64,000 nucleotides of DNA from Halococcus salsus (GTDB taxonomy: Archaea > Halobacteriota > Halobacteria > Halobacteriales > Halococcaceae): NCBI RefSeq assembly GCF_009900715.1, contig NZ_JAAAJC010000007.1, forward strand, positions 62,001-126,000. Direction: 5' to 3'. This document shows positions 29,976-54,108 of this stretch, one piece after another. The notes below the pieces were generated by a model, which saw only the letters and a list, made by a program, of their open reading frames with translations, was not told the DNA's origin and ran no database searches. Position numbers and translations under genes: made by a program. Each line of letters opens with the position of its first letter. Position 1 is the first letter of the stretch.

Positions 29976-32873
29976 CTATCCGAGAGTTACTTCTTGTGAG
30001 TTGGCTATCTCCGCTTGTACGAGGTCTTTGAGTTCCGCTTCTGTGAGTGATTCCACTGGTTCCTGAGAACCGGTTTCAGTGTAAAGAACACTGGCTGAGA
30101 TATCCCGGTCAGGGAAGCTTTGTCTAACGACATGATAGTAGACGCTGATCTGTTTGCGGTATTCGGAGTGAGCGTGCTGACCACGATCAGTTTTATAATC
30201 GATGATTGTCACCTCATCTGGTGTCACACACAGCAAATCGATTACTCCGGAAATCGTCACCTGCTCGCCACCGATAGTGAGTGGAAGGTAGGCTGATTTC
30301 TCGGCGTGAAGCTCTCCATTGAGTGAGTCGATGAGCCGCTGCACGTTCTGTTCGTCCTCTTCAGTGTCGCCTGTGGCCGGCGCATCCACTTCGCCCAGTA
30401 TATATTGTTCTGCGAACTCGTGGACTCGCTGTCCGAATGCTGTTCCTTCTCCATTGGTGACGCCCTCGAAGACGCTATCGTCGATGAGGGAGTGTGGGGA
30501 TTGGCTGATTGGTCCAGTCTGTTTTGGAACCGTAATCTGGAGGTGGCTCTGTACGGTGTTGTCGGCTTCCGCCGATTGCACATCCGGCTCGATTCGAGCT
30601 GGTTTGAGCGGAAGGTTCTCGAAGAACGGGCTTGGTGCCGTCTCCGCCGAAAAGAGCAGGTGGTCTTTCGCTCGCGTCATCGCGACGTAGAGCAAGCGAC
30701 GTTCCTCGTCGTATTCGCGGGGTAGACACGAAGACCGGACATCATGTCGCCAGCTATGATAGACGTGCGGCAGTCCATGAGCAGTTGAGTACTCCTTCGT
30801 CTGCCGGAGTCCTACGATGTCGTTGTATCGAATAGCGTCGCCACCACCGCCCATCGATGGGAAGTTGTACTGGTTGAGGTTCGCAAGGATGACGATCGGG
30901 TGCTCGAGACCCTTCGCTGCGTGGATCGTCTGCACGGTGACCGCATCCGCACTCGGGCAGTCATCGACCTCGTGAGTGCTCTCTGCTTCGAGACTTCGTT
31001 CGATGAACTGGATCACTTCCCCGCGATTCAGATGGGTGCTCGAAAACACCTCTTCGAGCGTGGTCATCAGGGTGTCTGCGTAGGCGTCATCATAGCCATA
31101 TCTCTCGAAGACTCGATGAGCAATCCCACCGATGGTTTCGATACTCGCTAATTCATCGCGGAAGCGCTTCATGTTCGAGGGATAGACGCTCCGTTCAAGG
31201 ATCTGGTCCGCCTCCTCGATCGTGTAGCCTGCTCGCTCGAGCACGACTGCCCAACCACGGTCAGCATCGTTTTCGAGGATCCGAAGCCACGCTAACAGGA
31301 GTAGGGCCTGGTCAGTTTCGAACAGTTCAACGCCACCCTCGTAGGCCATCGGGAACCCATACTGACTGGCGCGTTTCTGGAACTCTCGGCCGAACCGTCG
31401 GGTCCGGGTAAGAACGGCGATATCGTCGTACTCGGGTGGACGAAAGCCACCCTCGGCTTCGCCGTCCGCGATCCTATACTCGGTGTTGCCGACGATCGTC
31501 TGTATTCGGTCAAGAAGCGCCTCGTGTTCGTCGTCGCCGGTTATCGCTTCGATTCGGGAGTGGGAAGCCTCCGAATTCGCTTCGAGCGAGACGATCCTCT
31601 CTTGGATAGCTTCGGTATCGAGTTCCTCGCTCTGTGTTGCCGGCAGTGTCAGACTACACTCCGAGAAATCCAGTATCTCTTGGGTCGACCGATAGTTCTC
31701 GACGAGCTCGATCTCGGTTACGTCATCGATAGGGTACTCAATGCGTACCGAGTCATCGTTGAGTTCGTCTCTGTACTGCTGAAGACGCTCCTCGAAGTGA
31801 CGGATGTTGTCGACGGAGGCATACTGGAAGCTGTAGATGCTCTGCTTCCAGTCGCCCACCACACAGATGTTGTCGGTCCCGGCGAGCAGGAGGGCGAGTT
31901 TGAACTGGATCTCGCTGGTGTCCTGGAACTCGTCGATCATCGTATACTCGAAGGCAAACTCCTCGCGAACTCCATGATCCTCACAGAGCAATGCGAACGC
32001 GAATAGCAGGAGGAAGCTGAAGTTGAGGTAATTCCGACTGAGAGCGAACTCGATATACTCGAAATAGAGGTCGTGGACGAACCCCTTCAGCTCCGAGCGC
32101 TCCTCCTCAAAGACACGGTCGGCCCAATCGGTATCGATCTGCTTCGTTCCACCCTCACCGCGAAGCTCCGTTTCCGAGGGTGCATCCGGGAGATAGCATT
32201 TGTTGTCGCCGTAGCCTCCAAGACTACTCCGGAGGTCAGACTGTGTTGGCCCAGATTTACCTTCGTTCGGGGCATTAGCATCTATGAAGCACTCTTTGAA
32301 CTCTTCGAAGTCACCGTCGAGATAGCGCTCGCCATGACGGAACCATCCCTCGCGAGTCGGAAAGACGCCCTTTGCGGCGAGCTGTTTGATCAGACCGAGG
32401 AGCGAGGAATCGTCCGAGAGAACCCGGAAGTAATCCTCGTACTCCGGGTGTTCACGAATGAAGCGATTCGTGAATTCTTGGAAGCGCTCGTTTTCGATGA
32501 CCTCGTTGTCGAGGAGCTGAGTCGTCGAGGTGATGCGGTCGTCGATGCCGAGAATCTGTGGCGCCTCGAAGCCGTACTGGAGCAGGATATCGTGTGCGAG
32601 ACTGTGGAAAGTACTGATAGGTGCATCTCGGAGCGCAGCCATGCTGTACTCACAATGGCTAACAATTCGATCTTTCATCTCGTCGGCAGCGTTGTTCGTA
32701 AAGGTCAACAGGAGGAGGTCGTCGGGTTCGACGCTATTCTGATCGAGAACATTTGCGTAGCGTCGGGTGACAGTGAACGTCTTCCCCGTGCCAGCGCCCG
32801 CATCAACGAGGTAGGTGCCTTCGGTTGCGTCGATCAACTTCTGCTGTTGATCGTTGGGTGTAACGTCGGTCAT
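29976..32873 (-). CDS. AddA-like UvrD-family helicase with C-terminal RecB-type nuclease
   Basis: A 965-residue superfamily 1 helicase. Walker A is AGAGTGKT (about 26-33) and the DEAD-box position reads MIDEFQDTSEIQ, followed by GDWKQSIYSFQYA. The C-terminal PD-(D/E)XK nuclease has RVHEFAEQYI, GVIDLL and IIDYKTDRG, so its catalytic residues look intact. Its start overlaps the stop of the upstream AddB-like gene (ATGA at 32870-32873). Together they should process double-stranded DNA ends, for recombinational repair or as an anti-invader nuclease. The sequence does not decide between these. Confidence 0.85.
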   Translation of the reverse strand: MTDVTPNDQQQKLIDATEGTYLVDAGAGTGKTFTVTRRYANVLDQNSVEPDDLLLLTFTNNAADEMKDRIVSHCEYSMAALRDAPISTFHSLAHDILLQYGFEAPQILGIDDRITSTTQLLDNEVIENERFQEFTNRFIREHPEYEDYFRVLSDDSSLLGLIKQLAAKGVFPTREGWFRHGERYLDGDFEEFKECFIDANAPNEGKSGPTQSDLRSSLGGYGDNKCYLPDAPSETELRGEGGTKQIDTDWADRVFEEERSELKGFVHDLYFEYIEFALSRNYLNFSFLLLFAFALLCEDHGVREEFAFEYTMIDEFQDTSEIQFKLALLLAGTDNICVVGDWKQSIYSFQYASVDNIRHFEERLQQYRDELNDDSVRIEYPIDDVTEIELVENYRSTQEILDFSECSLTLPATQSEELDTEAIQERIVSLEANSEASHSRIEAITGDDEHEALLDRIQTIVGNTEYRIADGEAEGGFRPPEYDDIAVLTRTRRFGREFQKRASQYGFPMAYEGGVELFETDQALLLLAWLRILENDADRGWAVVLERAGYTIEEADQILERSVYPSNMKRFRDELASIETIGGIAHRVFERYGYDDAYADTLMTTLEEVFSSTHLNRGEVIQFIERSLEAESTHEVDDCPSADAVTVQTIHAAKGLEHPIVILANLNQYNFPSMGGGGDAIRYNDIVGLRQTKEYSTAHGLPHVYHSWRHDVRSSCLPREYDEERRLLYVAMTRAKDHLLFSAETAPSPFFENLPLKPARIEPDVQSAEADNTVQSHLQITVPKQTGPISQSPHSLIDDSVFEGVTNGEGTAFGQRVHEFAEQYILGEVDAPATGDTEEDEQNVQRLIDSLNGELHAEKSAYLPLTIGGEQVTISGVIDLLCVTPDEVTIIDYKTDRGQHAHSEYRKQISVYYHVVRQSFPDRDISASVLYTETGSQEPVESLTEAELKDLVQAEIANSQEVTLG

Positions 32874-35524
32874 CGGTCGACCCCCGTGGTCTCGGAAGTG
32901 GATGTCTGAGGGTCATCGGGGGTTGGGGACTGAGCGTGTTCCTCCGTGAGGATGAGGTCGCGGTGGTCAACCCGATCAAAGTTCGGCTCGCCAGCAAGGT
33001 CGGTCGCGACTGGGAAACGAGACGTTCGCCAGTCGTTCAGGCTATCGATACGGTCATCCACGAATGCCTCGAAGGCGTCGACCTCCGGGGCGAAATAGTT
33101 CTCCATGCGGAGGGAGTGGAACTCGCGGAGCGCTTGCGAACAGCCCTTCTCGACGTATTTGTAATCGCCGACGGCGCTTTTCATTCGCGACATGAGCTCA
33201 TCAGCGAATGCTGATTCGAGCAGCTCGTCTTTCTCGTACGTCGTCGGGATCTCGTGCGCGTCGAGAAACGAGTGATACGTCTCGTAGTCGATCTTTCCGA
33301 ATGTCTTCTGACAATCGTTGTATCCCTCCTCGCGAAGTGTCTCGAAGGTCGTCTCGCGCTGAATGTACGCCTCGAACGAGGTCGGATGGTAGGTGACGCT
33401 CGTGAGTCCCGGTTCGAGATTGGGTGGGTCCTCGCCCGTGACCGCCTCATCGAGAGTTTCGAGGAAATGGAAAAGACGGAATCGTAGCTGTTCGTCCGGG
33501 CGTTCATCGCGGTGCTGAGCGATATAGAGCAACGCCTGGAAGTTCGGGGTGTCGCTAATCTCGTCGATCCGTGCGTTTTCGACGACTTTCTTTGCAGAGG
33601 TGTGTTTCCCACTTTTGTAATCGAGAAGCCGACTGGGAGTGCGAATCAGGTCGATAACGCCCTTGCCACCAACGTCGATGTTCTCGAACCACTGTTCGGT
33701 GATCGGTGAGTCTATCGGTTGGTTGAACTGATCGGCAAAGCGATTTCCCCAACCTGGACTCGTATAAGCCTCGTAGACTGACTCTTCCGGGGGATGTTCG
33801 TCGAGATATCGGATGATAGTCTCGGTGCCGATCCAGAGTTCGGTTTCGAGAGTCGCAAGATCATGGTCATCCACGTAGGGCTCCATGTCATCGAGCATGA
33901 TCTCGACGATGCTATCGAGGCCCTCCGCATCAACCGTCTCTGGGTGATCGACGTAGAACTCCGCGAAGTCGTGGAAGAGGTTGCCCTTCTCGATGTAGTC
34001 GCGATCCGGGCCATCAACGAGGCGGTCGAAGTAGTAGTCTCGGGGACAGTTGACCAGCGTACTCAGTGATGATTGGCTGATGGTCTCGACAGTATCTGGG
34101 GAAGTCTCGATTGACTCTTTCTCGAACCCGGAGGTAGCGGTCGCTGGTGTGGCGTGAGTGTACTCTCGATGCGGGAGGTCTGTGAATCGGTCGAACTCCT
34201 CGTCGAGAAGATCGTTGAAATAGAGGCAGGGTGTGATCGCTCTCCCTGCCTCAGTATCCTGGACGAGGTAGTACTGGTCGACGCCGTTCTGCAGCAGAAT
34301 CTGGAACTGCTCGAGATACTGCTGGTCTTTCTGGTCGGCGTCGATCCAGGGTTTGTCCGGGATTGGGTTCGTCCACCCAGTACCTAGCCCGAGATAGAAG
34401 ACAACCGGACGGTCGACGTAGGCCGCAGAGTTGACGGATGCGAGAAGCACCCCCTCCTGGCTCTCATCGGTCGGGATATCGATCGACTGGAAATAGTACT
34501 CTAAGTCGTCAAGAAGTTCTTCAGTCACTAGCTCGTCCAGGAGATCCAGGCGATCGAGTTCGGTACGGAGGTCAGTGAGCGAGGTGTCGGCCCAGCGTTC
34601 GTAGGTCGTGAGGGATTCTTCGAGAGTGTGGTCGTCGACGGTTCCATAGAACGCCTGGAACGGGACGAGTCGTGGTTCGTCGAGCGTCTGGAGTCGTTTT
34701 TGGTCGTCCTCGATCGCCTGGTCGATACCCATCGTAGTGAGGATCGGCCGAACATCGCTAACGCGTAAGCTCTCGCTCGAAAACGCTTTTCGAAGCAGTC
34801 TGAGAAACGTTCGGACGCGCGGTTGGTCAGTGAACCCTGGGCCACCGTAGTACGGAATGTCGGCAGATTCGAGTGCCGACTCGACGAGCGTTGGATACTC
34901 GCTCCCGCGGTCCATGACTACGGCGACGTCCTCGGCGGTTTCGGCAGTGGTGGTATCGACGACTGTCTCGACGATGGCGGTCGCCGAGTCGAACACGGAG
35001 AACGCCGGCAGGTCAAACGAATCTGTTGTGAATGGACTGATGGTATCGTAATCGTCGGGTAGAATGGAGCAATCGAGTGTCGTGAACTGTGCTTCACCGA
35101 TGACTGCGACGTCGAGATCGTTGTCGATGGTATAGTTGGCGAGCTCGAGATAGGAGCTTTCGGCCCGTTCGATGGCGGCGATCGCCTGCTGAGTTGCTTC
35201 GCTGTTGTATCGGTCGTGATTGAGAATTGCTTCAATATCGCCGGTTTCTGCCCAGCACTCGAGGATATTATCGATGAGATACGTTGTCTGTTTCCAGCTG
35301 AGGTTGGTGGTGGTGACGAGGTCCGCGAAGAGGCTGTGTCGGTCGTGTGGAACGAGCTCGTCCGACGCAAGCATTCGGGGTGTGGTAGCGAACCGGCCTA
35401 ATCGAGGTTGGTTGAGGCGGCGATTCAGGGCGAGACTCAGCGGGCCGTCTGTTGTGAGAACAAGGTCGTAATCCTCTGTTATTGCGTAGAGTTCGTCTAT
35501 AGAGCGGGCACGCTGGAGTGGCAT
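32870..35524 (-). CDS. AddB-like PD-(D/E)XK nuclease partner
   Basis: An 884-residue protein whose N-terminal part lacks an obvious Walker A, consistent with an inactivated helicase scaffold as in AddB. The C-terminal nuclease carries a conserved Cys (LVNCPRDYYFDRL), GNLFHDFAEFYVDH and GVIDLIRT/RLLDYKSGK, with intact nuclease residues. It is translated first and coupled to the AddA-like gene. Its first about 22 codons and upstream region are duplicated as a fragment at 56475-56705. AddAB-like pairs are uncommon in archaea, where HerA-NurA usually handles ends. Confidence 0.78.
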   Translation of the reverse strand: MPLQRARSIDELYAITEDYDLVLTTDGPLSLALNRRLNQPRLGRFATTPRMLASDELVPHDRHSLFADLVTTTNLSWKQTTYLIDNILECWAETGDIEAILNHDRYNSEATQQAIAAIERAESSYLELANYTIDNDLDVAVIGEAQFTTLDCSILPDDYDTISPFTTDSFDLPAFSVFDSATAIVETVVDTTTAETAEDVAVVMDRGSEYPTLVESALESADIPYYGGPGFTDQPRVRTFLRLLRKAFSSESLRVSDVRPILTTMGIDQAIEDDQKRLQTLDEPRLVPFQAFYGTVDDHTLEESLTTYERWADTSLTDLRTELDRLDLLDELVTEELLDDLEYYFQSIDIPTDESQEGVLLASVNSAAYVDRPVVFYLGLGTGWTNPIPDKPWIDADQKDQQYLEQFQILLQNGVDQYYLVQDTEAGRAITPCLYFNDLLDEEFDRFTDLPHREYTHATPATATSGFEKESIETSPDTVETISQSSLSTLVNCPRDYYFDRLVDGPDRDYIEKGNLFHDFAEFYVDHPETVDAEGLDSIVEIMLDDMEPYVDDHDLATLETELWIGTETIIRYLDEHPPEESVYEAYTSPGWGNRFADQFNQPIDSPITEQWFENIDVGGKGVIDLIRTPSRLLDYKSGKHTSAKKVVENARIDEISDTPNFQALLYIAQHRDERPDEQLRFRLFHFLETLDEAVTGEDPPNLEPGLTSVTYHPTSFEAYIQRETTFETLREEGYNDCQKTFGKIDYETYHSFLDAHEIPTTYEKDELLESAFADELMSRMKSAVGDYKYVEKGCSQALREFHSLRMENYFAPEVDAFEAFVDDRIDSLNDWRTSRFPVATDLAGEPNFDRVDHRDLILTEEHAQSPTPDDPQTSTSETTGVDR

Positions 35525-36676: not shown

Positions 36677-38047
36677 TTACTGAACACCCTCAAACGAGTA
36701 TTCACCCGAATTGATTGGAGCGTCATCAGGAACGTTGCTTTTGTTCAGCAGCCGATCCGGGAAGCTAGCCTGAGCAACGCCGATGAGCTGTGGCTCGACC
36801 TCGGCGAGATACGCCTCGTAACCATATGGTCCAATGTCCACGCCTTGTTTCCAAGCTCGCACCCAGAGGTACGTCTGTTCCTTGAGCCGGTGAGTCCCTG
36901 ATTCGAATAGTTCGCTTGCCCACGCCACTTTCCGCGAATCGTTTTCGAAGAGTGCCATGGAGAGTTCGCCGACGTGCCAGTAGTCTCCATCGCCCCAGCG
37001 AGCGAAGCTCCGAGTACTCGACCGATCGGCGGCGATTTCCGTGAAGTTCGCGCTCAGTTCGTTCTTCTTCCCGTACGCTTCCGCTTTCCCGATGTATCGC
37101 GGGACGATACCCGGTCGATTACCCTCTTCGGAGTCTTCGAGCTGATACATGAGGTAGATCAATCCCTCGCATCCATCCTCTCTCAGTCCCCCGGCGTGGA
37201 CGCACTTTTGGCCCTCTTCGCGAATTCGTTCGTCGATAGATGCCGAGCGTTTGAGACACCCGTTGTCGGTCAGTTCGACTTGTAGTTGCTCATCGGTGGC
37301 GAACAAAGGGATCGGGTCAGCTGTCGATTCGTCCGCGAGATCTGGGTAGACGTATTTCTCGAGCCAGTGGTCCCAGAGTTCGGCTTTCGAGTATCCCGTC
37401 GTGGGTGCTGTCTCTTGCGGGGGTGCGTTCGCAGTCCCTGGTCGCGTGAACTCAGTCGTGAGCCACTCGTGACCGGCGTTGCCGATCTCGTAGAGCGCTT
37501 GATTCGGCGCGAACTCACGATTGGTCATCGTCTGCCGATACTCCGGATGGGCGAAGATGAGTCCGACCAGTTTCGCTTCGAGCTCCTGGCGATACGTCTC
37601 GACACCATAAGGCGAGCTCTCTATCGTATCGACGTCGAGAATCCACACGTAGAGTCGTGAGTCGGCAGCATCCCGGACTGCGGCGATGTGGTCGTACTTC
37701 GAGAAGCTGCCCCACGAGCCGTCGTCTTCCCAATCATCGACCGGGAGTGCATCGTCGATTTTCTTGTAGTGTCGGTAAATTCGAGAGCCAATGTTTCGGG
37801 ATTCACCGACGTAGACGGGGGTGATGTCGGATGCAGTGTCGAGTGGTTCATTCGCTAGGTAGATGAGATACAGGTAATCGCCGTCGTTCTTCCCGTATCG
37901 ATAGCTATCGAGTGCATCAGTGGTGTCGAGCTGTCCGTCGACTCTCGTTAAGAATGGGACTGGGTCCGGATGCTCGGGGTTCTGGACATCTTGGAGGAGA
38001 GTATCTTCCAGCCACGTGGTCCACAAATCTGCCTTTGACCCCCGCAT
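36677..38047 (-). CDS. Double-module GIY-YIG nuclease-like protein
   Basis: The 456-residue protein consists of two similar halves. Each opens with an S-K-A-(D/E)-L-W-x-x-W-L-E motif (about residues 4 and 223), followed by a GIY-YIG-like region: LYLIYLA...VYVGESRNIGSRIYRH (about 50-95) and GLIYLMY...PRYIGKAEAYG (about 290-325). In the second half the catalytic Arg/Glu region is less clear, so it may be a degenerate module. Its last about 35 codons recur at 63733-63843 as a fragment. Probable nuclease; defence role inferred from neighbours. Confidence 0.7.
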   Translation of the reverse strand: MRGSKADLWTTWLEDTLLQDVQNPEHPDPVPFLTRVDGQLDTTDALDSYRYGKNDGDYLYLIYLANEPLDTASDITPVYVGESRNIGSRIYRHYKKIDDALPVDDWEDDGSWGSFSKYDHIAAVRDAADSRLYVWILDVDTIESSPYGVETYRQELEAKLVGLIFAHPEYRQTMTNREFAPNQALYEIGNAGHEWLTTEFTRPGTANAPPQETAPTTGYSKAELWDHWLEKYVYPDLADESTADPIPLFATDEQLQVELTDNGCLKRSASIDERIREEGQKCVHAGGLREDGCEGLIYLMYQLEDSEEGNRPGIVPRYIGKAEAYGKKNELSANFTEIAADRSSTRSFARWGDGDYWHVGELSMALFENDSRKVAWASELFESGTHRLKEQTYLWVRAWKQGVDIGPYGYEAYLAEVEPQLIGVAQASFPDRLLNKSNVPDDAPINSGEYSFEGVQ

Positions 38048-38219: not shown

Positions 38220-40313
38220 TTAGAGCTTCTTCCGAACTAACGATCGGTTGCTCCCACTTCTCTTACGGAATGGGTTCCGACCAATAGCAGGACGACTCTT
38301 CCGCTGTTTGGATTTACGATGTGACGTTTTCTTTTTTGACGACGACTTAGAGGACCGATGCTTCGGAGTAGGGATCTGAAGCGAGCGGACTGTTTCATCT
38401 GCTGGCGGTGCTTCAATGGTCGCTTTTGCATATCCTGATCTCTTGTCCGTAATTCTCACAATCACGTTCTCTGAGTCGTGGCCTTCGGCGTCATCGATAT
38501 GCACTCGACCCCTTTTCGACAGTCCGAGCCCTGATTCTTTGACCCGATCAATTTTTACCTGGATGTAGGCACCCTCTTCGAGTTGTCGAAAGCTCACCTT
38601 TTCATCGCTTACTTCCACAGGCCACTCGACCGATCGGGTGGATGACGCAGGTGGTGGAAGCTCTATCTTGAATCTATCCGCAGCGATTTCAACCTCGTTG
38701 TCAAAGGCTGTCTTCGCTGCTTGACTGAATTCCTTCGATGGGGTCTCAGTCTCCGGCGCAAAGTTGGTCAAAACTAGCTTTTTGGCCTTTGCTCGTGCGG
38801 CAATTCGACCAGCATCGACTGCTGTCGAGTGACCTATCGTATGGGTCTGTTCAGCCACCCGCTTTGGCCCAGCGGATTCATGGATTAGTAAATCCGCGTT
38901 TTGAGAACCCTCAACAACTGTGTCTGCTGGCCGTGTGTCGCCAGTATATACGATATGTCGACCTGCTATCGGGTCCCCAAAGACTTGCCGAGGGTCGACC
39001 TCACGGCCACCCTCCAATGAGACCTTCTCGCCTTTACTCAGTTTTCTGTAGAGAGTTTTGTCGAGTACCCCGAGCGCCTTTGCATGGATCTCGTCGAACG
39101 CCCCTTGATGGGGCATCTCTTTCAGTACATACCCTATGGAGGGATCGTTTGAGGACGTCTCAATTGCCTCAATGCTGTACTCTCCTGTAGAGAGTACTTC
39201 TCCCTCGCTTACTTCGAGAACAACTATTGGGTAATCGAACTCACCGAATGCGTCGATAAGGCTCTCAATTCTCTCACCGGTCCCTACAGGGGTGTAGACA
39301 TGCAGCTTCCTTGTCCGCTTCTCAGCAGTGTATCTCCTGAGGAGAGGGCCTAATCCGCCAGTATGATCGATGGCTACCGACGTGAGGAATATTGCATCGA
39401 TGTCTATGTTAGAGCAATGTGACGTCAAACGCTGCTGGGTTCCCTCTCCGACATCAAACAGGAACTGCTCGTTTCCTCGTTTCAGAAGTATCGAACTCGT
39501 TATTCTGTCGTCTGTTGGACGTTCTCCGGCTGTTCCAAGGAATGTGATGGCGACGGGCTCATCGTATGTCTTTGCCTTTTGGAACTCAAAAAGTGAGGGG
39601 CGAGAATCAAACGTATCACTACGGATCTGGTGTCTTCGGTCTTTCAGCGTGGTACTTCCTTCACTGTTGACACCTGGTTGTACATGGGTTGCACGGGGCC
39701 CTTTCTCGGCGGTAGTGTGAACAAATGCTACCTTAGTGCCTTCTTGAACGTCAGGGCCACCGAGATCCTCCATGTGGTAGAAAACGTCTTCTGCGAGTTC
39801 CGAACATGAGATGAACCCGTATCCACCGGTGTCGTTAAAGAAATCTACAGTGCCATAGTAGATGGTTCCCGAGCGGGGTTTGTCGGGTCGCCATTTCGTA
39901 GTCCCCGATGTCGTCTGAGTTGGATTTTTCTCCGCCGTTTCTGTGGGGTGTCGTTCACGAAGGTAGTCGACCAGTTGGCCACGTTGGCTCTCACTTAGGT
40001 CCCCTTCTCGTAGAAGCAGCTCAAAAAACTCTTTTCGAGAGCTTGGAGATATCGCTTCTTCGGATATCGTTGGAATCTCTTTGAGCGATTTAGGCGGCTT
40101 AACTCCTGACCGGTGTGTGTAGATTAGTTTGAACCGATGGAGAGCGTAGAGGATCTCACCAGAGATGGTGTCACCATCCCTATATCCGAGTTTCTTGAGA
40201 ATCCGATACGCAATAGCTGTGACCTGATATGTGACGCTCTGGCCGTTATGATTGGCATAGATATAGAATCCATTCTTTTCGTTGTTGGGAGCATACCTGT
40301 GTAGCCTTGGCAT
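38220..40313 (-). CDS. Cold-shock/RNase Z-like/TRAM fusion with degenerate metal site
   Basis: A 697-residue fusion. Residues 1-130 are unrecognised; 149-212 form a cold-shock fold (GTVDFFNDTGGYGFI...EDVFYH); 255-545 match an RNase Z-type metallo-beta-lactamase (ITFLGTAGERPTDDR, LFDVGEGTQQRL, VYTGDTRPAD, GHST); 572-633 resemble a TRAM domain; a Lys/Arg-rich tail ends it. The zinc motif HxHxDH reads SVAIDH, the His before SIGY is replaced and the late LTHF reads LTNF. It is probably not a normal tRNA 3' processing enzyme but an RNA-binding pseudo-enzyme. ATG 40313 is preferred to TTG 40322. Confidence 0.72.
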   Translation of the reverse strand: MPRLHRYAPNNEKNGFYIYANHNGQSVTYQVTAIAYRILKKLGYRDGDTISGEILYALHRFKLIYTHRSGVKPPKSLKEIPTISEEAISPSSRKEFFELLLREGDLSESQRGQLVDYLRERHPTETAEKNPTQTTSGTTKWRPDKPRSGTIYYGTVDFFNDTGGYGFISCSELAEDVFYHMEDLGGPDVQEGTKVAFVHTTAEKGPRATHVQPGVNSEGSTTLKDRRHQIRSDTFDSRPSLFEFQKAKTYDEPVAITFLGTAGERPTDDRITSSILLKRGNEQFLFDVGEGTQQRLTSHCSNIDIDAIFLTSVAIDHTGGLGPLLRRYTAEKRTRKLHVYTPVGTGERIESLIDAFGEFDYPIVVLEVSEGEVLSTGEYSIEAIETSSNDPSIGYVLKEMPHQGAFDEIHAKALGVLDKTLYRKLSKGEKVSLEGGREVDPRQVFGDPIAGRHIVYTGDTRPADTVVEGSQNADLLIHESAGPKRVAEQTHTIGHSTAVDAGRIAARAKAKKLVLTNFAPETETPSKEFSQAAKTAFDNEVEIAADRFKIELPPPASSTRSVEWPVEVSDEKVSFRQLEEGAYIQVKIDRVKESGLGLSKRGRVHIDDAEGHDSENVIVRITDKRSGYAKATIEAPPADETVRSLQIPTPKHRSSKSSSKKKTSHRKSKQRKSRPAIGRNPFRKRSGSNRSLVRKKL

Positions 40314-40511: not shown

Positions 40512-41864
40512 CTATAGGAAATGAGAGAGCACATCTTCTAATTGGGATTCTACCTCAGACGCTTGCAGTATCTTAATCTCACTTCCTGTTTGATCCTCAA
40601 GCGGGGCCGTTGGTTCGTCTAAGTCCTGCGCTACGAGAAGTCCATTCCATCCTTCTCCGAAATACTTGCTAGTTGATGTTTCTCGCCCAAAGACGAACTG
40701 TTCGTCGTGGCGCAAGAAGGCGAGATATTCGAGCGTCTCTTTGATACCCTGACGAATCGTCCCTTTGTTTGAACTGTTCTTGACTTCAGTGACCAGGTAA
40801 TCACGGTCATCCTCTTTCCGGCGAATCTCAATCACGATCAAGTCAGGGCGCCCAGTTTGTGTCCTGAAATTGTGATCCGTGAAATAGCTCTGTGCGACGT
40901 CGAATCCCGTTGTATGCACCTTCTCAGTTCGGGAGAGCTGCTCTTCGCCTTCGTTAGGGACGGGTATGAATGAAATACCTCGGTCGCCACCGGAGTTGTC
41001 GTGGTAAACTACTATCTCTGGTTGATCTTCCCCTGTGAGTCGAGCAACTTCTTGACGACCGGACTTGATCGTCTCAAAGCGCGCATCGGTTTCGCGGAGT
41101 TTCTCTAACGTTGCGATGAATCGGAAGAGAACGAATAACTCGAGTAGCGTTTCGTCGTCATCCGGCGTTATAGCTGTCTCAGTAAGGAGGCGTTCGAGCG
41201 GCTCCTTATCGCCGGCGAATAGATTTCGGCGCATTGTGAGCAGCTTAGCTGCCTCTCGATATACGTCATGACGTGACTCGCTGGCGGTGTTGAGCATGCG
41301 GTCGGTCGGCTCGTACGCTCTCGGCTCTCGAATACGCCGTACGTGGACGTTCTGTTCGATAACACGACGAAGGTTGTTGATCAGTGGGTCGTTCCAGCGC
41401 TCGTTGACCCAGGTGTAGTCCTGACGGAGGTACTCTTCAGCCTCCTCGAGCGTTCGCCGAATAACGGCGATAAGCTGCTTGAAGACGAGGTTTTCAGCGG
41501 TGTCGTAATCTTCGGAACGATGGTCGCAAACGAATGCTGACCGGTCACCGGGATTTCGGCTGTAGCGATGTTTGATAGTGGCCGCCCAGTTGATCTTTCC
41601 ATTAGTCGCACCCCGAGTCGTGCGTGATACCGATTCTGTTTCGGTCTTCAGCGTTCGCACACGTCGCGGTAGCGATTCAACGAACTCGACTACCTCGGGG
41701 AGTAGAATGAAATGCAGGTCGAGTAAGAGCTCATACTCAATGAAGCGCTCATCCAGCGCTTCGGGCTTGATCGCGGCGGCGAACTCGCGCTCGGGGAAAG
41801 CGCCGTGCATGACATACGCTAGTACATCATCGGTCAGATTGTCGAGGAGCTCTTGTCTATCCAT
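40512..41864 (-). CDS. mcrC: McrC-like nuclease subunit
   Basis: A 450-residue partner of the McrB GTPase. The N-terminal helical DUF2357/McrC-like region is followed by a PD-(D/E)XK core, RPDLIVIEIRRK...YLVTEVKNS, with Asp, Glu and Lys in place. Its start overlaps the mcrB 3' end by 8 bases. In McrBC the AAA+ ring loads the nuclease on modified DNA, and the same is inferred here. Confidence 0.78.
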   Translation of the reverse strand: MDRQELLDNLTDDVLAYVMHGAFPEREFAAAIKPEALDERFIEYELLLDLHFILLPEVVEFVESLPRRVRTLKTETESVSRTTRGATNGKINWAATIKHRYSRNPGDRSAFVCDHRSEDYDTAENLVFKQLIAVIRRTLEEAEEYLRQDYTWVNERWNDPLINNLRRVIEQNVHVRRIREPRAYEPTDRMLNTASESRHDVYREAAKLLTMRRNLFAGDKEPLERLLTETAITPDDDETLLELFVLFRFIATLEKLRETDARFETIKSGRQEVARLTGEDQPEIVVYHDNSGGDRGISFIPVPNEGEEQLSRTEKVHTTGFDVAQSYFTDHNFRTQTGRPDLIVIEIRRKEDDRDYLVTEVKNSSNKGTIRQGIKETLEYLAFLRHDEQFVFGRETSTSKYFGEGWNGLLVAQDLDEPTAPLEDQTGSEIKILQASEVESQLEDVLSHFL

Positions 41865-44841
41865 TAGAATCGGAGACTATTGTCGTCTGTAAGATGTCCC
41901 GTGCTGCCTCCTCTAGTAGGTCTCTCTCAATGTGGTCGATATCGGCGATCTCCTTGACAATTGTACCTCGCTTCGGAACTCCTTCGAGCTGCGGGAAGAT
42001 ATACGAGATAACGGCTTGTGTTAGTCGACGTTGCCACGGAATGGTGGGGGTTTCGGCGAGAAAGCCGAGAATATCCTTTACGACAGCTGGGCCGATAGCA
42101 CGGTCATCGATAGCGGTGTTTACAGCTTGCCAGACCTTGGCTACATCTAGAAGTGGGTTGACTCCGGCTCCTGCTTGTAGTTCTTCGGAGGTAATATCCC
42201 AAACTGCAGCGTCGGTATAGGATTCGATGAGCGTCTGGAGCTCCTCCGGACTCCGTTCTTCCAAGGTAGGGACTGGGACGCGAATAAACGCAAATCGGCG
42301 CATGAATGCGTAGCTCATCTCGTAGAGAGACGTCTTATCGTAGGTGTTGAGCGTCGCAAACAGGGTCCAGGAGGTCGGGATCCCGTACTGGTGCGGAGAG
42401 AGGTCGGGGCGACCATTGAGTGGCGCAATTTCGACCTCATCCCCGTTCTTCGTGTATGGGAGGTGAACCTGCTGTCCGGAAAGGACAGTAAATAGTTGAC
42501 CGAACGCCTTGTCGATATCAGCTCGATTGAGCTCGTCGATGACAAGCGGCTCGTTGCGTTGGATGTTCCTCGAACGCGTCTTGAAGCGATTTAGTACGAG
42601 ACCAGGGGTGAACTCAAGCTGATTGTTGTTTGTGCCGTCTTCGCCCGGCATGTAGCCGCCGACAGTATCGAAGGTCGACCAATCGGCTGTCGCTGTTGTG
42701 ATCTGCGAACCAGAGTAGAGGTAGGGATAGTGCTCGACGAGGTACGTTCCAATACGCCGAGCGATTTCCGTCTTGCCCGTCCCGGGCGGGCCAGTAAGGA
42801 TCACATGCTTCCTCGAACGAAGAGCCCCTCCGATCTGTGCGATGATCTCTTCGCCAGTGTTGTTGGGGAAGTAGAGCCCATCGAGGATTTCGTCGGTCTC
42901 TAACTTTCCATCGAATGCTTTGTTCAGTGCGACTGGTGGCGACTCACGGAGTGAGTTTGCGAGTTGTCCTACCAGTGCGATTGCTTGGTCGTGGTTACTG
43001 AGGGGAACGACTGTACGTTGACCGGGGAAGCCGGAATCGCCAGTTGCGTTATAGATCTCGTTGGCTTCTGCGAATGGAACTGAGTTAGCTGTGAGGGCTG
43101 TGAGTTCGGCGTTGATGGCTGTGGATTCTTTGGCGAAGATTTCCTGCGTGAAATCGATATCGGCGAGGTTGCCGCTCGTATAGAGATGCTCAAAGCTCAC
43201 CAAGTACGGGAATGTGTCGTCCTTTGGTCGTCCCTCTTGCTCGTCATACCACCACGAATCCTCTCTAGCTTTAGTCGACGTATTTCCGATAATCCCGCCG
43301 CCGATAATACTCGAGTTTTGCTCGTCGAGCTCTTCCCATCCTGGTGCAGCTGTCGAGTGAAAGAGCAGCACGTCACCGGGCTCGAGATCGTTCCAGATAT
43401 CTTGGTCGTCCGGTTCGAACCCAACAGCTGCATGTTCGTAGGCCGTGAGCCAGTAGTCCGGTGGTGCAGTGAATTTGTAGACTGACGGGTTTGTCGAGCG
43501 AATGTGGTTGGCTAGTGGATGTGTGGAGTCTGTCTTGGGTTGAGTGTTAATTTCTTCTTCCCCTGAAAGATGATTTGGCTTGTCCGGATAACCGTCGTCT
43601 CCACGAGAGACACCAAGATGATCAGCTACGTCGTCAATTGGTTTCTCGAAATCATTACTCAAGTCCGCTGCTTCCATGCGACGACCCACTGCACCAACAA
43701 AATGATCCACCTCAGCTACGAACTCCTCAAGAGTCCAATTGTGGAACAGCTTTTTTCCTTGTTTGAGACAGTTGACGGCAATACCCTGCTCTGGGAATGA
43801 ATGCCAGTCAACCTCAAGAAAGTGCTCGTGGTCGAACTCGGGGGGACCAATAGTAGCCGGGTCCTCAAACTCCTCCATTGTCTCGAAATAAGACTTCGTG
43901 ACGCGTCCTATACCAAATGTGACGTCGATTTTCTTCTTGGGTGACCCTGCAATAATAACATCGCCGGCCTCGATCTCTTCCTGGAAACTATATACCTGAT
44001 TTTCAGGGGAATTGTGGGGCGACGAGGGACTCTCAACCAAATCCTCGAAATCAAATGATTTGCCTTTCCACCCTACTGAGGCAATACTCTCTTCCTGCCA
44101 AGTATCCCAGTAGGCTTCTTCTCCTCCTTCAGGTGAAATCTTCCAGACATTCGCGTCGCCGATATTGAACTGTGGAACTGAATATAGTGTGTTGAGAAAC
44201 TTCTCGTATATATCGATAAGAGTTGTTAAGTCAGAAACTACTGTTTCATCTGCTAAGTCTCCCAATTCATCGAGGTCATACGTACGACACAGAATTGTGC
44301 CCGCATTGTAGGGTTTTGCTCGCGATACTTCCTCGGGCTCTCCAGCAACCGCGATTTCCTCAGAAAGGGAAGCGGCCTCATTGGTAAACTGCTCTGGGCA
44401 GTCGATGAGTTCTCGATACATTGCAGCATGTTTCCTGAGAATTTCATTCGCGTATGGCTTACCTGACAACAACCCCGAGGCTCGCTGTGCCTCAGTAGCT
44501 CCCTGATTCAGAGTGAGATAGAGATTTCTGGCGTCTGTATCAAACAGATAAACAATATAGATACCCTTCTGTGTCGTCTGTGTTTCGTCAGGACGAAGGA
44601 TTGGAATATACGGGATATCGGCCATCGTGGTCTGGCCGATTGTCGGATTGATTTTGAACTCATCAGCTCGATTGCCAAGCGCATCAGCAACTGCTATCTC
44701 AGCTGTTCCTGTAACTAATTCATGCAGATCCGGATCCGAGTTGATTCGGTGGTATTCGCGACCTTCCCCAATATCCTTTGGAGAGGGGTACTCCTGAAGA
44801 ATCGATCGTAGAACCTCACCTAAGCGAGGTGTTGAATCCAT
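41857..44841 (-). CDS. mcrB: McrB-like AAA+ restriction subunit with two EVE-like sensor modules
   Basis: Domain order: an MrcB-type N-terminal domain (about 1-170, GIYIVYLFDTDARNLYLTLNQG), a PUA/EVE-like module (about 230-330, NVWKIS...SIASVGWKG...AGDVIIAG), a second EVE-like module (about 455-575, WLTAYEHAAVGFEP...LEPGDVLLFHS) and an AAA+ motor with Walker A LTGPPGTGKTEIARR (about 684) and VIDELNRADIDKAFG (about 764). The GTP-specific McrB signature is plausible. ATG 44841 gives MDSTPRLGEVLRSI; another ATG at 44856 is possible. Two sensor modules are unusual and may widen the set of modified bases recognised. Confidence 0.82.
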   Translation of the reverse strand: MDSTPRLGEVLRSILQEYPSPKDIGEGREYHRINSDPDLHELVTGTAEIAVADALGNRADEFKINPTIGQTTMADIPYIPILRPDETQTTQKGIYIVYLFDTDARNLYLTLNQGATEAQRASGLLSGKPYANEILRKHAAMYRELIDCPEQFTNEAASLSEEIAVAGEPEEVSRAKPYNAGTILCRTYDLDELGDLADETVVSDLTTLIDIYEKFLNTLYSVPQFNIGDANVWKISPEGGEEAYWDTWQEESIASVGWKGKSFDFEDLVESPSSPHNSPENQVYSFQEEIEAGDVIIAGSPKKKIDVTFGIGRVTKSYFETMEEFEDPATIGPPEFDHEHFLEVDWHSFPEQGIAVNCLKQGKKLFHNWTLEEFVAEVDHFVGAVGRRMEAADLSNDFEKPIDDVADHLGVSRGDDGYPDKPNHLSGEEEINTQPKTDSTHPLANHIRSTNPSVYKFTAPPDYWLTAYEHAAVGFEPDDQDIWNDLEPGDVLLFHSTAAPGWEELDEQNSSIIGGGIIGNTSTKAREDSWWYDEQEGRPKDDTFPYLVSFEHLYTSGNLADIDFTQEIFAKESTAINAELTALTANSVPFAEANEIYNATGDSGFPGQRTVVPLSNHDQAIALVGQLANSLRESPPVALNKAFDGKLETDEILDGLYFPNNTGEEIIAQIGGALRSRKHVILTGPPGTGKTEIARRIGTYLVEHYPYLYSGSQITTATADWSTFDTVGGYMPGEDGTNNNQLEFTPGLVLNRFKTRSRNIQRNEPLVIDELNRADIDKAFGQLFTVLSGQQVHLPYTKNGDEVEIAPLNGRPDLSPHQYGIPTSWTLFATLNTYDKTSLYEMSYAFMRRFAFIRVPVPTLEERSPEELQTLIESYTDAAVWDITSEELQAGAGVNPLLDVAKVWQAVNTAIDDRAIGPAVVKDILGFLAETPTIPWQRRLTQAVISYIFPQLEGVPKRGTIVKEIADIDHIERDLLEEAARDILQTTIVSDSNG

Positions 44842-45023
44842 GTTGACTAATACCATGAGTATAGCATGAAGCCTTTGATTCATACAAAACTCTATGAGCA
44901 CGAGGAGATGCTCCGATGAGATTGTTAGATGATTGAGATATCGACTCAATATGCTCCTCAAAGAGCAACTGATACTCACTGACTGCTGGTCGACCTGATT
45001 CACTGGCCGACAATTGCAGAGAT

Positions 45024-45070
45024 TCTTACCTAACATTAGAACGAGGATGTCGACCTGACGTTTGGTAAGA
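45024..45070. promoter_or_regulatory. Inverted repeat TCTTACCTAAC...GTTTGGTAAGA upstream of mcrB
   Basis: Left arm 45024-45034 and right arm 45060-45070 are inverted copies with one mismatch and a 25-base spacer, about 185 bases before the mcrB start. The same arms recur at 50475-50520 with a 24-base spacer. No gene lies in 44857-45250; a TATA-like ATATAC for the gene at 45251 lies near 45219. Confidence 0.5.
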
Positions 45071-45250: not shown

Positions 45251-46288
45251 ATGATGTTCAGCGTGGATCGTGAGGCAGGCCGTCTTGACGACGTTATCGA
45301 GCGGTCGTTCCACGATCTCGATGTCCTCGAACGCTACGACCTCCAAGAGTGGGTTATTGAGAAGCCGCGTATTCTCGGAGAGGAGTTGCTGATCGTCACT
45401 TCGGAGTTTCAGAACTTCGTCCACACGCGCGAACGGCTGGACGTGCTCGCCCTCGACCCCGCAGGAAAGCTAGTCGTAGTAGAGCTAAAGCGGGACAAGG
45501 CCGATGAGACTACCGACCTCCAAGCGATCAAGTATGCGAGCTACTGCGCGACACTCACTGCTCAAGATGTTCAAGAAGAATACCGGAAATTTCACCGAAA
45601 ACGTACGGATAGTCCGATGCCACCAGAGGATGTCGGGGATCGCTTTATCTCTTTTCTTGATGAGCCAGATGAACCGTTCACCATAGATGAAGAGGGCTGG
45701 GCAGAATTCGAGCTCGATGACCGTCCTCGTATCCTGCTGGCAGCAGGCGAATTCGGCAGAGAGATCACTGCACCAGTCATTTGGCTCACGAGAGAATTCG
45801 GGATGGAGATCACCTGCATCCGCGTCGATGCCTATGAGCACCAAGACCGAGTCCTACTGAATAGCCGGCAGATCATCCCCACTCCAGAAGTTGAGGAGTA
45901 TCTGACACGCCGTCAAGAGAAGGAACGAAGACAAAGTGAGACGCGGCGTGGACGGACAATCAACGCGCTTCTCGACAGTGGAGCACTTGAATCGGGCCAG
46001 CAGGTAGTCTATAACCCAGATCAGGTTCCAAAGAGCATCGACAGAGAGTACGATCCTTTGAACGAATTCTGGCAAGCGGAGGTAACAGGCAATACAGGCC
46101 AGAGCAACAACGTTCGGTGGCTCCACAATGGTAAGACCTACTCATTCACTGGCCTTACGAAAGAGCTGCTCAACGAACTCATCGACCGCGATAGAGGGCT
46201 AGCGCTCAACGGTTACAATTACTGGATACAACCGGACTACGACCGAACGCTCGCGGACCTTAGAGACGAACCTGTGCGCGCAGAATAA
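45251..46288 (+). CDS. PD-(D/E)XK nuclease, NucS/DUF91-like core
   Basis: A 345-residue protein whose N-terminal half has the nuclease signature ERLDVLALDPAGKLVVVELKRDK (Asp, Glu-x-Lys) followed by DLQAIKYASYCATL, typical of NucS/DUF91-like and other stand-alone restriction nucleases. A charged coiled segment (about 215-240) precedes a C-terminal module (VRWLHNGKTYSFTGLTKELL) resembling RAMA/reader domains of restriction proteins. It is divergent from mcrB. Defence nuclease inferred. Confidence 0.72.
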   Translation: MMFSVDREAGRLDDVIERSFHDLDVLERYDLQEWVIEKPRILGEELLIVTSEFQNFVHTRERLDVLALDPAGKLVVVELKRDKADETTDLQAIKYASYCATLTAQDVQEEYRKFHRKRTDSPMPPEDVGDRFISFLDEPDEPFTIDEEGWAEFELDDRPRILLAAGEFGREITAPVIWLTREFGMEITCIRVDAYEHQDRVLLNSRQIIPTPEVEEYLTRRQEKERRQSETRRGRTINALLDSGALESGQQVVYNPDQVPKSIDREYDPLNEFWQAEVTGNTGQSNNVRWLHNGKTYSFTGLTKELLNELIDRDRGLALNGYNYWIQPDYDRTLADLRDEPVRAE

Positions 46289-46650
46289 GAATAATACGGC
46301 ATTTGATTTCGATGGCTCAACCGCTTGGAGTGTCTGATAGCAATCATATCTCAAATGCACTTGAAGCCAGCTACCCTTCTAGGGTTGCGCGGTCGAAGCG
46401 AATAGAATCCAGCTTGTCGCCGTACAACAGTTCAGGGCCATGCTTGAGGCATACGGTGCCGCCGACATCAGTGACGACTTAGATAGCGTTCAATCACCAG
46501 ATGCAGTGGTCGACGCTGATACTGGCGGAACCACGATCTTACGTCCTCTCTTCCCACCATAGCTCGCGTACGGCTCATGCCATGCATTTCAGGTGAACAG
46601 AGGTTAAGAAACGTTCAACCCTTTTGTTTTCGTAGAGGAAGCTACCAATC
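46289..46650. other. Gene-free stretch with a short ORF remnant
   Basis: No intact gene is seen. A 40-codon ATG ORF at 46440-46562 ends LRPLFPP and continues upstream in frame without a start, so it may be the tail of a lost gene. A promoter for the DUF4268 gene probably lies near 46605-46630. Confidence 0.4.
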
Positions 46651-47613
46651 ATGGTGGAATCCGAGGAACCGGTTTTCCACGAACTTGTGCCTCAAGCTGT
46701 TCGGGACTACTGGACACACGAAGCTCACGACTTCACTCCCTGGTTAGCGGACTCAGTACGAAACGAGAAGGTGTCTCACTTAGAGGACGAACTGGGTCTG
46801 GATTTAGAAGTGATTGAGACAGAGCGGAGCGTCGGAAGGTACAATCTCGATATCCTTGCCGAGGTCATCGACGATGGGCGGCAGGTCGTGATTGAGAATC
46901 AGTTGGAGCAGTCCGACCATGACCATCTCGGGAAATCCATCGCGTATGCAGCCGGTGTGGATGCTGATATAATTGTATGGATTGCACCTGAATTCAGCGA
47001 TGAGCACTGCGATGCCTTTCAGTGGTTAAATCAGAATAGCCGGGAAGGTATCGACCTCTTCGCAATCAGACTGGAAGTCTGGAAGATTAGCGAATCCCCA
47101 CCAGCGGTTCGGCTGAATTCCATTGAAGATCCAAGCGAATGGAAGAAGAAAGCCCAGCGATCCGATGGTGAGATAACGGACGTGAAGCAGCTCCAAGAGG
47201 AATTTTGGACTCAGTTTCGTGACCGAATCGAGCAGTCTTCGACCCAACTCAGCTCTCGAAAGCCGAAACCACGCCACTACTACAGCAACCCGATTGGGAA
47301 AAGCGGATTCCATATCTCGTTTGTAAATTTGTTCAGCGAGGATGAGCTGTTTGTAGATTTCATTATTGAGGACAATGAAGCGGCATTTTGGGATTTGAAA
47401 TCTAATGAGGAAACAATCGAAGAGGAGCTTGGATACGAGGTACAGTGGGAAGAGCCCCGAGAAACACACGGTGGAAACATGCGAAGTAACATCAGGGTAG
47501 TCCGGGGTGCCGACCTCGAAAACCGAGAGCAGTGGGAGGAGTATCTCGATTGGCTCTTAGAGTACGGCGAACGATTTCACGAAGTGTTCCGTCATCGGAT
47601 TCAACAGTTCTAA
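46651..47613 (+). CDS. DUF4268-type PD-(D/E)XK nuclease-like protein
   Basis: A 320-residue protein with the nuclease-like core RYNLDILAEV...RQVVIENQLEQSDHDHLGKSIAYAAG (Asp, Glu-Asn-Gln), where the usual E-x-K reads E-N-Q as in several DUF4268/Mrr-like families. The C-terminal DUF4268 part contains HISFVNLFSEDELFVDFII. Such proteins are common in defence islands. Function inferred as DNA cleavage or binding. It follows the NucS-like gene on the same strand. Confidence 0.72.
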   Translation: MVESEEPVFHELVPQAVRDYWTHEAHDFTPWLADSVRNEKVSHLEDELGLDLEVIETERSVGRYNLDILAEVIDDGRQVVIENQLEQSDHDHLGKSIAYAAGVDADIIVWIAPEFSDEHCDAFQWLNQNSREGIDLFAIRLEVWKISESPPAVRLNSIEDPSEWKKKAQRSDGEITDVKQLQEEFWTQFRDRIEQSSTQLSSRKPKPRHYYSNPIGKSGFHISFVNLFSEDELFVDFIIEDNEAAFWDLKSNEETIEEELGYEVQWEEPRETHGGNMRSNIRVVRGADLENREQWEEYLDWLLEYGERFHEVFRHRIQQF

Positions 47614-52950: not shown

Positions 52951-54108
52951 TTATTCACCGCTCTCTGAGGATTGCTGGCTATCAGCTTCTTTGAAGGCGT
53001 CAGTCATTTGATCAGCTAGATCACCGGCTTCGATGTGTGAGTAGTGCTCCCGAACTACTTCTTCAGAGTTATCGAGAGCACGTGCAGCAGCCGCGTGGCC
53101 TGAGGTGCGAACGAGGACCTCGCCAGCACCGCGTCGAGCTCCATGGGGCATCAGATACTCGTCGTCATCATCGAGTTCGATATCTGCCTGGTCACAAAGC
53201 CGCTTGAGAACGTGGCGTCCAGCGTCGGTCGTGATCGAGGGTGGTGCGACATCGAATTCGATACAGGACTCGATAAGCGACTGGTCTACTTTGATCTCCT
53301 CTATTTCCGTCTCGGTATAGCCACGCTCGGCGAGCGTCTCGGTAATCCGTTGAGACAGCGTCGGGCGGTGGAAGGAGGGGAAGACCGGCCAATTCGGACT
53401 TGGTACGTCGAGAATACGCTGGTAGGCCTCGAAGGGATAGACCACAGGCCCTGGAAGACCGCGGTCGTCAAGGCGCTGTTTTTTCGCGAACACCGTCACG
53501 TAGCGGTCCTTGAGGTGAACGTCCTCCCAGCGGAGTCCCTGGCGACGCTCATCGCTCTTGTCGCGGAGAACCTCGGCTCCTCGAACACCTGAGTATGACA
53601 GAAGATACACGAGAACGCGGTCGCGACAGGCTTTGATTGCAGCCTCTCGGTCCTCACTGACGTTATCAATAGCTTCGTGTGCCTGCTCATCGACGAACGC
53701 AGTGACCCGTTGACGATCGTCGGCAGACCAGGCCTGTTGCTCTCCGCTCTTGTGCCCGCCATCATCGGGGATGGGTTCGGTGGCGTTGCGTCGCTGGGCG
53801 ACGTTCTCAGCGAGGTGACCTTCGCGAACGGCCCAGCCACAGAACGCGGAGACGTATGCGTAGTAAGTTCGGACTGTGCCCGTCGCCCAGCCCTGGCGGG
53901 TGAGATGTCGGGCGTACTTACGGAGATGGCCTGACTCCAACTCCTCGAACGTCGTCACGGCGTCCTCGTGCTGAGCGAGGAACTCGACGAAGCGATTGAG
54001 CTCCCTGTTAGCGTCGCTACGATAGTTCCCGCTCTTGCCACCCTGACCTTTCCCTTTGTCCGTCAGGAAATCCTCAGTAACTGCGTCGATACGAACGATA
54101 CTACACAC
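52951..54108 (-). CDS. Tyrosine recombinase/integrase (second)
   Basis: A 385-residue XerC/D-like recombinase. Core-binding domain about 1-120; catalytic Arg in SGVRGAEVL, Lys in AKKQRL, HGARRGAGEVL for HxxR, SGHAAAARAL for the second His and the nucleophile in VREHYSHIE. All catalytic residues are present. The GTG at 54108 is used as start although a later one is possible. It lies about 30 kb from the first integrase in the opposite direction and could belong to a different inserted element. Confidence 0.88.
   Translation of the reverse strand: MCSIVRIDAVTEDFLTDKGKGQGGKSGNYRSDANRELNRFVEFLAQHEDAVTTFEELESGHLRKYARHLTRQGWATGTVRTYYAYVSAFCGWAVREGHLAENVAQRRNATEPIPDDGGHKSGEQQAWSADDRQRVTAFVDEQAHEAIDNVSEDREAAIKACRDRVLVYLLSYSGVRGAEVLRDKSDERRQGLRWEDVHLKDRYVTVFAKKQRLDDRGLPGPVVYPFEAYQRILDVPSPNWPVFPSFHRPTLSQRITETLAERGYTETEIEEIKVDQSLIESCIEFDVAPPSITTDAGRHVLKRLCDQADIELDDDDEYLMPHGARRGAGEVLVRTSGHAAAARALDNSEEVVREHYSHIEAGDLADQMTDAFKEADSQQSSESGE

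Follow-up and report, generated by a model that had tools for sequence, protein, structure and literature searches.

The window analysed here is a stretch of 64,000 nucleotides from contig C7 of a haloarchaeal genome (G000). The gene under study encodes a multidomain protein in which an N-terminal domain (NTD) is followed by a cold-shock domain (CSD), an RNase Z fold, a TRAM-like segment and a basic tail (Table 1). The open reading frame is intact and real, with 697 codons open. It starts with the ATG at 40313, a start that is kept in a relative; an in-frame TTG lies 3 codons upstream. The gene lies directly downstream of McrB-McrC, with a gap of about 198 bp, and the McrB is the sole MrcB_N match in G000. 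The original prediction had placed the gene between a GIY-YIG nuclease and McrBC. The McrB part of that assignment is firm, while McrC is represented by a weak PDDEXK_9 match and the score of the GIY-YIG neighbour stays under the threshold. Beyond these genes the window resembles a genomic island, with an AddAB-like pair, a PDC-S11 pair, an integrase and a lower GC content from about 24 kb on. The AddAB-like pair consists of a UvrD helicase and a PD-(D/E)XK nuclease (29976-35524). The two genes at 45251-47613 match PDC-S11, a candidate defence family in PADLOC (best E 3e-69 and 2e-105).

Table 1. Features of the fusion gene and its neighbours (positions in the window).
Feature	Position	Strand	Details and evidence
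GIY-YIG-like protein, downstream neighbour	36677..38047	-	14.5 bits, sub-threshold
Multidomain protein, 697 aa	38220..40313	-	NTD - CSD - RNase Z fold without Zn1 ligands - TRAM-like - basic tail
Basic tail	38223..38378	-	aa 646-697; net +20; ends RSLVRKKL
TRAM-like domain, sub-threshold	38388..38600	-	aa 572-642; Pfam TRAM 14.0 bits, gathering score 21
RNase Z-like metallo-beta-lactamase fold, Zn1 ligands lost	38643..39554	-	aa 254-557; sequence models, AlphaFold2, fold match
H269 -> N517, Zn2 ligand	38763..38765	-	Asn in both family members
D211 = D459, bridging ligand kept	38937..38939	-	ligand alignment
Flexible arm / exosite, kept	38976..39116	-	aa 400-446; arm conservation, AlphaFold2 pLDDT 85-93
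H140 -> S388, Zn1 ligand lost	39150..39152	-	ligand alignment
HxHxDH motif reading SVAIDH	39363..39380	-	H63 -> S312, H65 -> A314; D316, H317 kept
Cold-shock domain (CSD)	39678..39857	-	aa 153-212; Pfam CSD
N-terminal domain (NTD), unnamed modular haloarchaeal family	39939..40313	-	aa 1-125; 28-member alignment
McrC-like protein, PD-(D/E)xK motif, directly upstream	40512..41864	-	PDDEXK_9 18.6 bits, sub-threshold; position beside McrB
McrB GTPase with MrcB_N	41857..45036	-	MrcB_N 1e-29, AAA_5 3e-13; GTPase motif NTYD (NxxD)

The predicted CSD is confirmed by Pfam (49.1 bits, E 5e-13; gathering score 27 bits). It also carries the sole PADLOC match of the protein, to the model CSD_V; no system-specific PADLOC model matched, and neither Pfam nor PADLOC matched an ABC ATPase or anticodon nuclease domain in the protein. 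The RNase Z region scores 225 bits with the NCBIfam ribonuclease Z models, below the curated cut-offs of 252 and 293, and is matched by B. subtilis RNase Z with an E-value of 1e-33 (phmmer). AlphaFold2 models this part with pLDDT mostly above 90, flexible arm included; confidence is low for the TRAM-like part and the tail. The top PDB fold match of the RNase Z part is the B. subtilis RNase Z-tRNA complex 2fk6 (Foldseek, E 3e-28). The model and the fold match bear out the proposal that much of the RNase Z fold is kept. The protein has a single MBL domain, not the two that are required of a tRNase ZL / ELAC2. The predicted TRAM domain stands as a TRAM-like segment, but its score does not reach the Pfam gathering score; that of the relative L044 is likewise under the 21-bit cut-off (18.9 bits). 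A PDB search with the TRAM segment of the window protein gave no match, and a search for further copies of the segment in its own genome gave only a weak one (E 0.2). The tail is as basic as first described, with 20 K/R and 0 D/E in residues 646-697.

A second full-length member is encoded on a plasmid of Natronococcus sp. AD-5 (NZ_CP132295, L041:15010-17099). It is 45% identical to the window protein across all domains (73% in the CSD), shares its architecture and its pattern of ligand loss, and has a tail ending in RNLVRKKQ. A single frameshift at an A-run separates its CSD from its RNase Z part; the cause is either a mistake in sequencing or a recent mutation. In about 450 haloarchaeal genomes no further full-length member came to light. 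The search proposed for homologues with the full domain order thus yielded a second genus with the same ligand losses, but just this one further member. A homologue of the same architecture with an intact HxHxDH motif, which the original prediction had named as evidence against itself, was looked for in the same set of about 450 genomes and none was found. The two-member alignment recovered just an ordinary Mesonia RNase Z and a Halococcus CSD in a species-level (GTDB-wide) contig search and no match in viral contigs; a phage collection held RNase Z domain matches alone, none of them full-length.

In the tree, the window and Natronococcus proteins make up a single clade (100/100) with long branches, which falls within haloarchaeal RNase Z. 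The RNase Z part of the pair, as placed by this tree, is of single origin from a haloarchaeal RNase Z. RNase Z is usually an essential tRNA enzyme. An RNase Z-like match was present in 291 of 292 haloarchaea, nearly always just one, and G000 encodes its own intact RNase Z, 39% identical to the window protein; therefore, the fusion is not the housekeeping enzyme.

Zinc ligands were compared in an alignment of 31 distinct haloarchaeal RNase Zs, one Mesonia RNase Z and both fusion proteins. H63, H65, D67, H68, H140, D211, H247 and H269 are retained in all 31 haloarchaeal enzymes and in that of Mesonia. At these eight positions the window protein reads S, A, D, H, S, D, H and N, and the Natronococcus protein A, E, D, H, A, D, H and N. 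The full ligand set of a catalytic ribonuclease Z (H63 H65 D67 H68 H140 D211 H269) is therefore incomplete in the window protein: four of the seven are gone (H63, H65, H140 and H269), as had been read from SVAIDH, Ser at H140 and Asn at H269, and three are retained (D67 as D316, H68 as H317 and D211 as D459). Retained beyond the ligands are H247 (H495) and the HEAT-motif E479. The three Zn1-only positions (63, 65 and 140) are all replaced, by different residues in the two proteins; D67, H68, D211, the HEAT-motif E, H247 and N269 are identical in both. The probability of exactly this split by chance is 1/84. Judged from the alignment, the Zn1 site is gone and three of four Zn2 ligands remain, which makes the site remodelled and not plainly dead. 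Together with the domain matches and the neighbours, the ligand losses bear out one part of the original prediction, that of a degenerate RNase Z within an RNA-binding-type fusion in a defence-rich island; catalytic death, binding of tRNA 3' ends and sensing or blocking of RNA damage are its more conjectural parts.

Because D67, H68, D211, the E and H247 are identical in both copies, the alignment suggests that the active site may still do something. D316, H317, D459 and N517 (D67, H68, D211 and N269) could still hold one metal, and mono-zinc B2 beta-lactamases hold a single metal of the Zn2 type. The protein would then be a remodelled single-metal enzyme that serves the restriction locus as an active effector, an RNase or phosphodiesterase and perhaps a toxic one. 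The 3/6 split described above is in its favour, as is the residual activity of the H65A variant of B. subtilis RNase Z, for which PMC12663964 gives a citation. Four of seven ligands are lost, however, classical RNase Z chemistry uses two metals, and the conserved SSRY loop after H269 has also disappeared. A single-metal enzyme is a real, if unlikely, possibility.

The Natronococcus copy lies directly downstream of hsdM-hsdS-hsdR, a type I RM operon, with a gap of 143 bp. This hsdM is the sole PF02384 match in the Natronococcus genome (E<=1e-10), and the MrcB_N match of that genome lies elsewhere, away from the fusion copy. Because the second copy is beside type I RM, what the family is linked to is restriction, rather than McrBC as such. 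A rough estimate puts the same position in both genomes by chance at about 2e-5, if 20 candidate defence loci per genome are assumed; the position behind two different restriction systems is hard to ascribe to chance, with two loci only. The neighbourhoods of both copies share a restriction operon, but not the GIY-YIG neighbour. As a system partner the GIY-YIG protein was rejected, being absent from the Natronococcus locus. Co-location with restriction genes could also reflect hitch-hiking in mobile islands. The gaps of about 198 and 143 bp weigh against presuming co-transcription with the restriction operon.

The same position may be read as that of a neighbour regulator, a CSD/TRAM RNA chaperone that would control expression of the restriction operon or would act on mRNAs in general, its RNase Z part serving as a scaffold for RNA binding. 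The pairing of CSD and TRAM is typical for RNA chaperones; for one archaeal TRAM protein, sequence-independent RNA binding and an effect on expression have been described (PMC6705878); and the gene sits directly behind restriction genes in both genomes. This reading accounts neither for the recruitment of an RNase Z fold, arm included, nor for the recurrence of the arrangement beside two unrelated restriction systems, and we regard it as rather unlikely.

The flexible arm, through which RNase Z grips tRNA, is kept. The window copy retains 14 and the Natronococcus copy 20 of the 26 strongly conserved arm columns; absence of the GP motif of the arm from the window copy counts against tRNA gripping. 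The sequence of 2fk6 has Ala at H65, so an RNase Z with such a substitution can hold tRNA. The amino domain of tRNase ZL has lost its metal site, keeps the arm and has a role in tRNA recognition (PMC3714273; PMC12663964). In the RNase Z dimer the arm of one subunit places tRNA in the active site of the other (PMC12663964), and the metal-less, arm-bearing domain of tRNase ZL serves the catalytic domain likewise (PMC12663964; PMC3714273).

These precedents would also suit a protein that pairs in trans with the intact RNase Z of the host, lending it an arm or poisoning it, as a split version of the two-domain design of tRNase ZL. G000 does hold the necessary intact enzyme, but strong sequence divergence and the lack of a link to the host rnz locus make such pairing improbable. 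That the gene is a decaying duplicate carried in a mobile island without present function is very improbable: its fast branches, the frameshift in Natronococcus and its rarity would fit, but 697 codons are open, and domains, arm, tail and residual site are all kept in two proteins just 45% identical.

Pfam has no model for the NTD, and its fold (AlphaFold2 pLDDT 84) matched nothing in PDB or BFVD, in agreement with its earlier description as an unknown domain. It was detected in 30 of 292 haloarchaeal genomes (E<=1e-4); every match in a 295-genome sample of the phylum falls inside the same order, and in the proteins read it lies at or near the N-terminus. L044 (G280) is an NTD-CSD-TRAM relative without the RNase Z part, L083:7486-9294 (G180) an NTD-CSD-macro domain protein, and L086 (G040) joins the NTD to a CSD-like stretch and an RHH domain. 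Insertion of an RNase Z domain into a pre-existing NTD-CSD-TRAM chassis would be the parsimonious reading of these architectures. Among the parts of the window protein, the NTD would be the likeliest candidate for binding a partner or a signal.

The neighbours of 19 NTD genes (the nearest genes of 120 aa or more, up to three per side; 110 proteins; Pfam E<=1e-5) were compared with a control of 112 proteins from hand-picked arbitrary positions in the same or related genomes. Families found among the neighbours included Helicase_C (5), DEAD (4), ResIII (3), Phage_integrase (3), PLDc_2 (3) and HNH_2 (2). Eighteen families had at least two proteins in the control; none of these six was among them, each being found in at most one control protein. 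The enrichment is modest, from a small sample with hand-picked control positions, and some neighbours, e.g. MrfAB-like helicase pairs, need not be defence genes. One NTD gene lies near HsdR genes on a Haloquadratum walsbyi plasmid and another near an HNH restriction-type gene. An NTD protein with zinc-finger-like stretches (L074:9020-11551, G033) adjoins a beta-CASP-like MBL protein and a helicase-PD-(D/E)XK protein; on inspection, that MBL protein has an intact HxHxDH and seems to represent another branch of the MBL proteins. The integrase-like gene of the window (52951-54108) has a near-identical copy on contig C24 of G000 (L093), which adjoins a second NTD gene.

Our preferred reading, held tentatively and at a little less than even confidence, is that a non-cleaving, tRNA-gripping RNase Z module in an RNA-binding chassis serves as an accessory of restriction systems. 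A haloarchaeal RNase Z would have been duplicated, would have lost the Zn1 half of its dinuclear centre and would have been built into the NTD-CSD-TRAM-basic tail chassis. With normal cleavage gone, the RNase Z part would now grip tRNA at the acceptor/T-arm via the flexible arm, and CSD, TRAM and basic tail would contribute general RNA affinity. The protein would act as an RNA-level accessory of the adjoining restriction system, its most likely task being sequestration or monitoring of tRNA or tRNA fragments during infection. The logic would be that of PrrC tied to EcoprrI, yet the window protein is not a PrrC. Binding of tRNA, response to infection and contact with a partner are inferred. In favour of this reading are the loss of the same four His in both members against 31 fully liganded RNase Zs, the single clade inside haloarchaeal RNase Z, the separate intact RNase Z of G000, the kept arm, the fold match to RNase Z with tRNA, the tRNase ZL precedent, the NTD-CSD-TRAM form, both restriction-operon positions and a +20 tail in a halophile. 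Against it counts that just two members are known, one of them frameshifted. A bolder extension, which seems unlikely, would make the protein part of an RNA-directed second defence line coupled to DNA restriction: upon breach the pseudo-RNase Z would grip tRNA, either by itself or in a trans pair with the RNase Z of the host that amounts to a split tRNase ZL. Its chassis would be a modular haloarchaeal one, with an NTD that carries other modules elsewhere (macro domain, CSD arrays).

Several known systems share parts of this design. With RNase Z / tRNase ZS (ELAC1-type, B. subtilis RNase Z) the protein has in common the fold, the flexible arm, D67, H68, D211 and H247; it differs in the four lost ligands, the sub-cut-off RNase Z score and the fusion to NTD, CSD, TRAM and basic tail, and is not the housekeeping copy. 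The amino domain of tRNase ZL / ELAC2 is likewise an RNase Z copy without metal site and with a tRNA-gripping arm, whereas the window protein is of independent archaeal origin, has no catalytic partner domain in its chain, and combines other fused domains with a genomic link to restriction. PrrC and RloC are tRNA nucleases, of which PrrC is tied to type I RM; PrrC is silenced by the linked type I RM enzyme and released once a phage blocks that enzyme (PMC2610378). The likeness lies in a suspected tRNA-directed protein beside a type I RM operon, but no ABC ATPase or anticodon-nuclease domain was detected in the window protein, no cleavage is expected of it, and the present family is also found beside McrBC.

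CoCoNuTs are McrBC relatives with predicted RNA targeting, defined by an NxD GTPase motif in McrB (PMC11090510). Type IV CoCoNuTs resemble the window in having an McrBC locus with cold-shock/OB and RNA-binding parts, but the CSD of the window sits on a separate protein. The window McrB was rejected as a CoCoNuT, as it reads ATLNTYDKTS, with NxxD and not NxD. Apyc1-type phosphodiesterases belong to the same MBL fold class as RNase Z; unlike the window protein, in which the Zn1 ligands are lost, Apyc1 keeps HxHxDH and degrades cyclic nucleotides. Archaeal stand-alone TRAM or CSD RNA chaperones share the TRAM-like and CSD modules, but the window protein has several domains, among them a pseudo-RNase Z and an unnamed NTD.

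A literature search found no description of this architecture, in keeping with the initial statement that no described system of such architecture was known. A metal-less RNase Z domain is already known in the amino domain of tRNase ZL, and RNA-directed restriction accessories are known in bacteria; a stand-alone, restriction-linked archaeal metal-less RNase Z on this chassis is undescribed in the literature searched. If the preferred reading is true, the family would be a second, independent case of the solution found in the tRNase ZL amino domain, here beside restriction operons. It would also connect DNA restriction in archaea with tRNA; in bacteria PrrC makes this connection, though by another route. 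Through the unnamed NTD, a wider family of haloarchaeal proteins becomes accessible, probably RNA-binding and with interchangeable modules.
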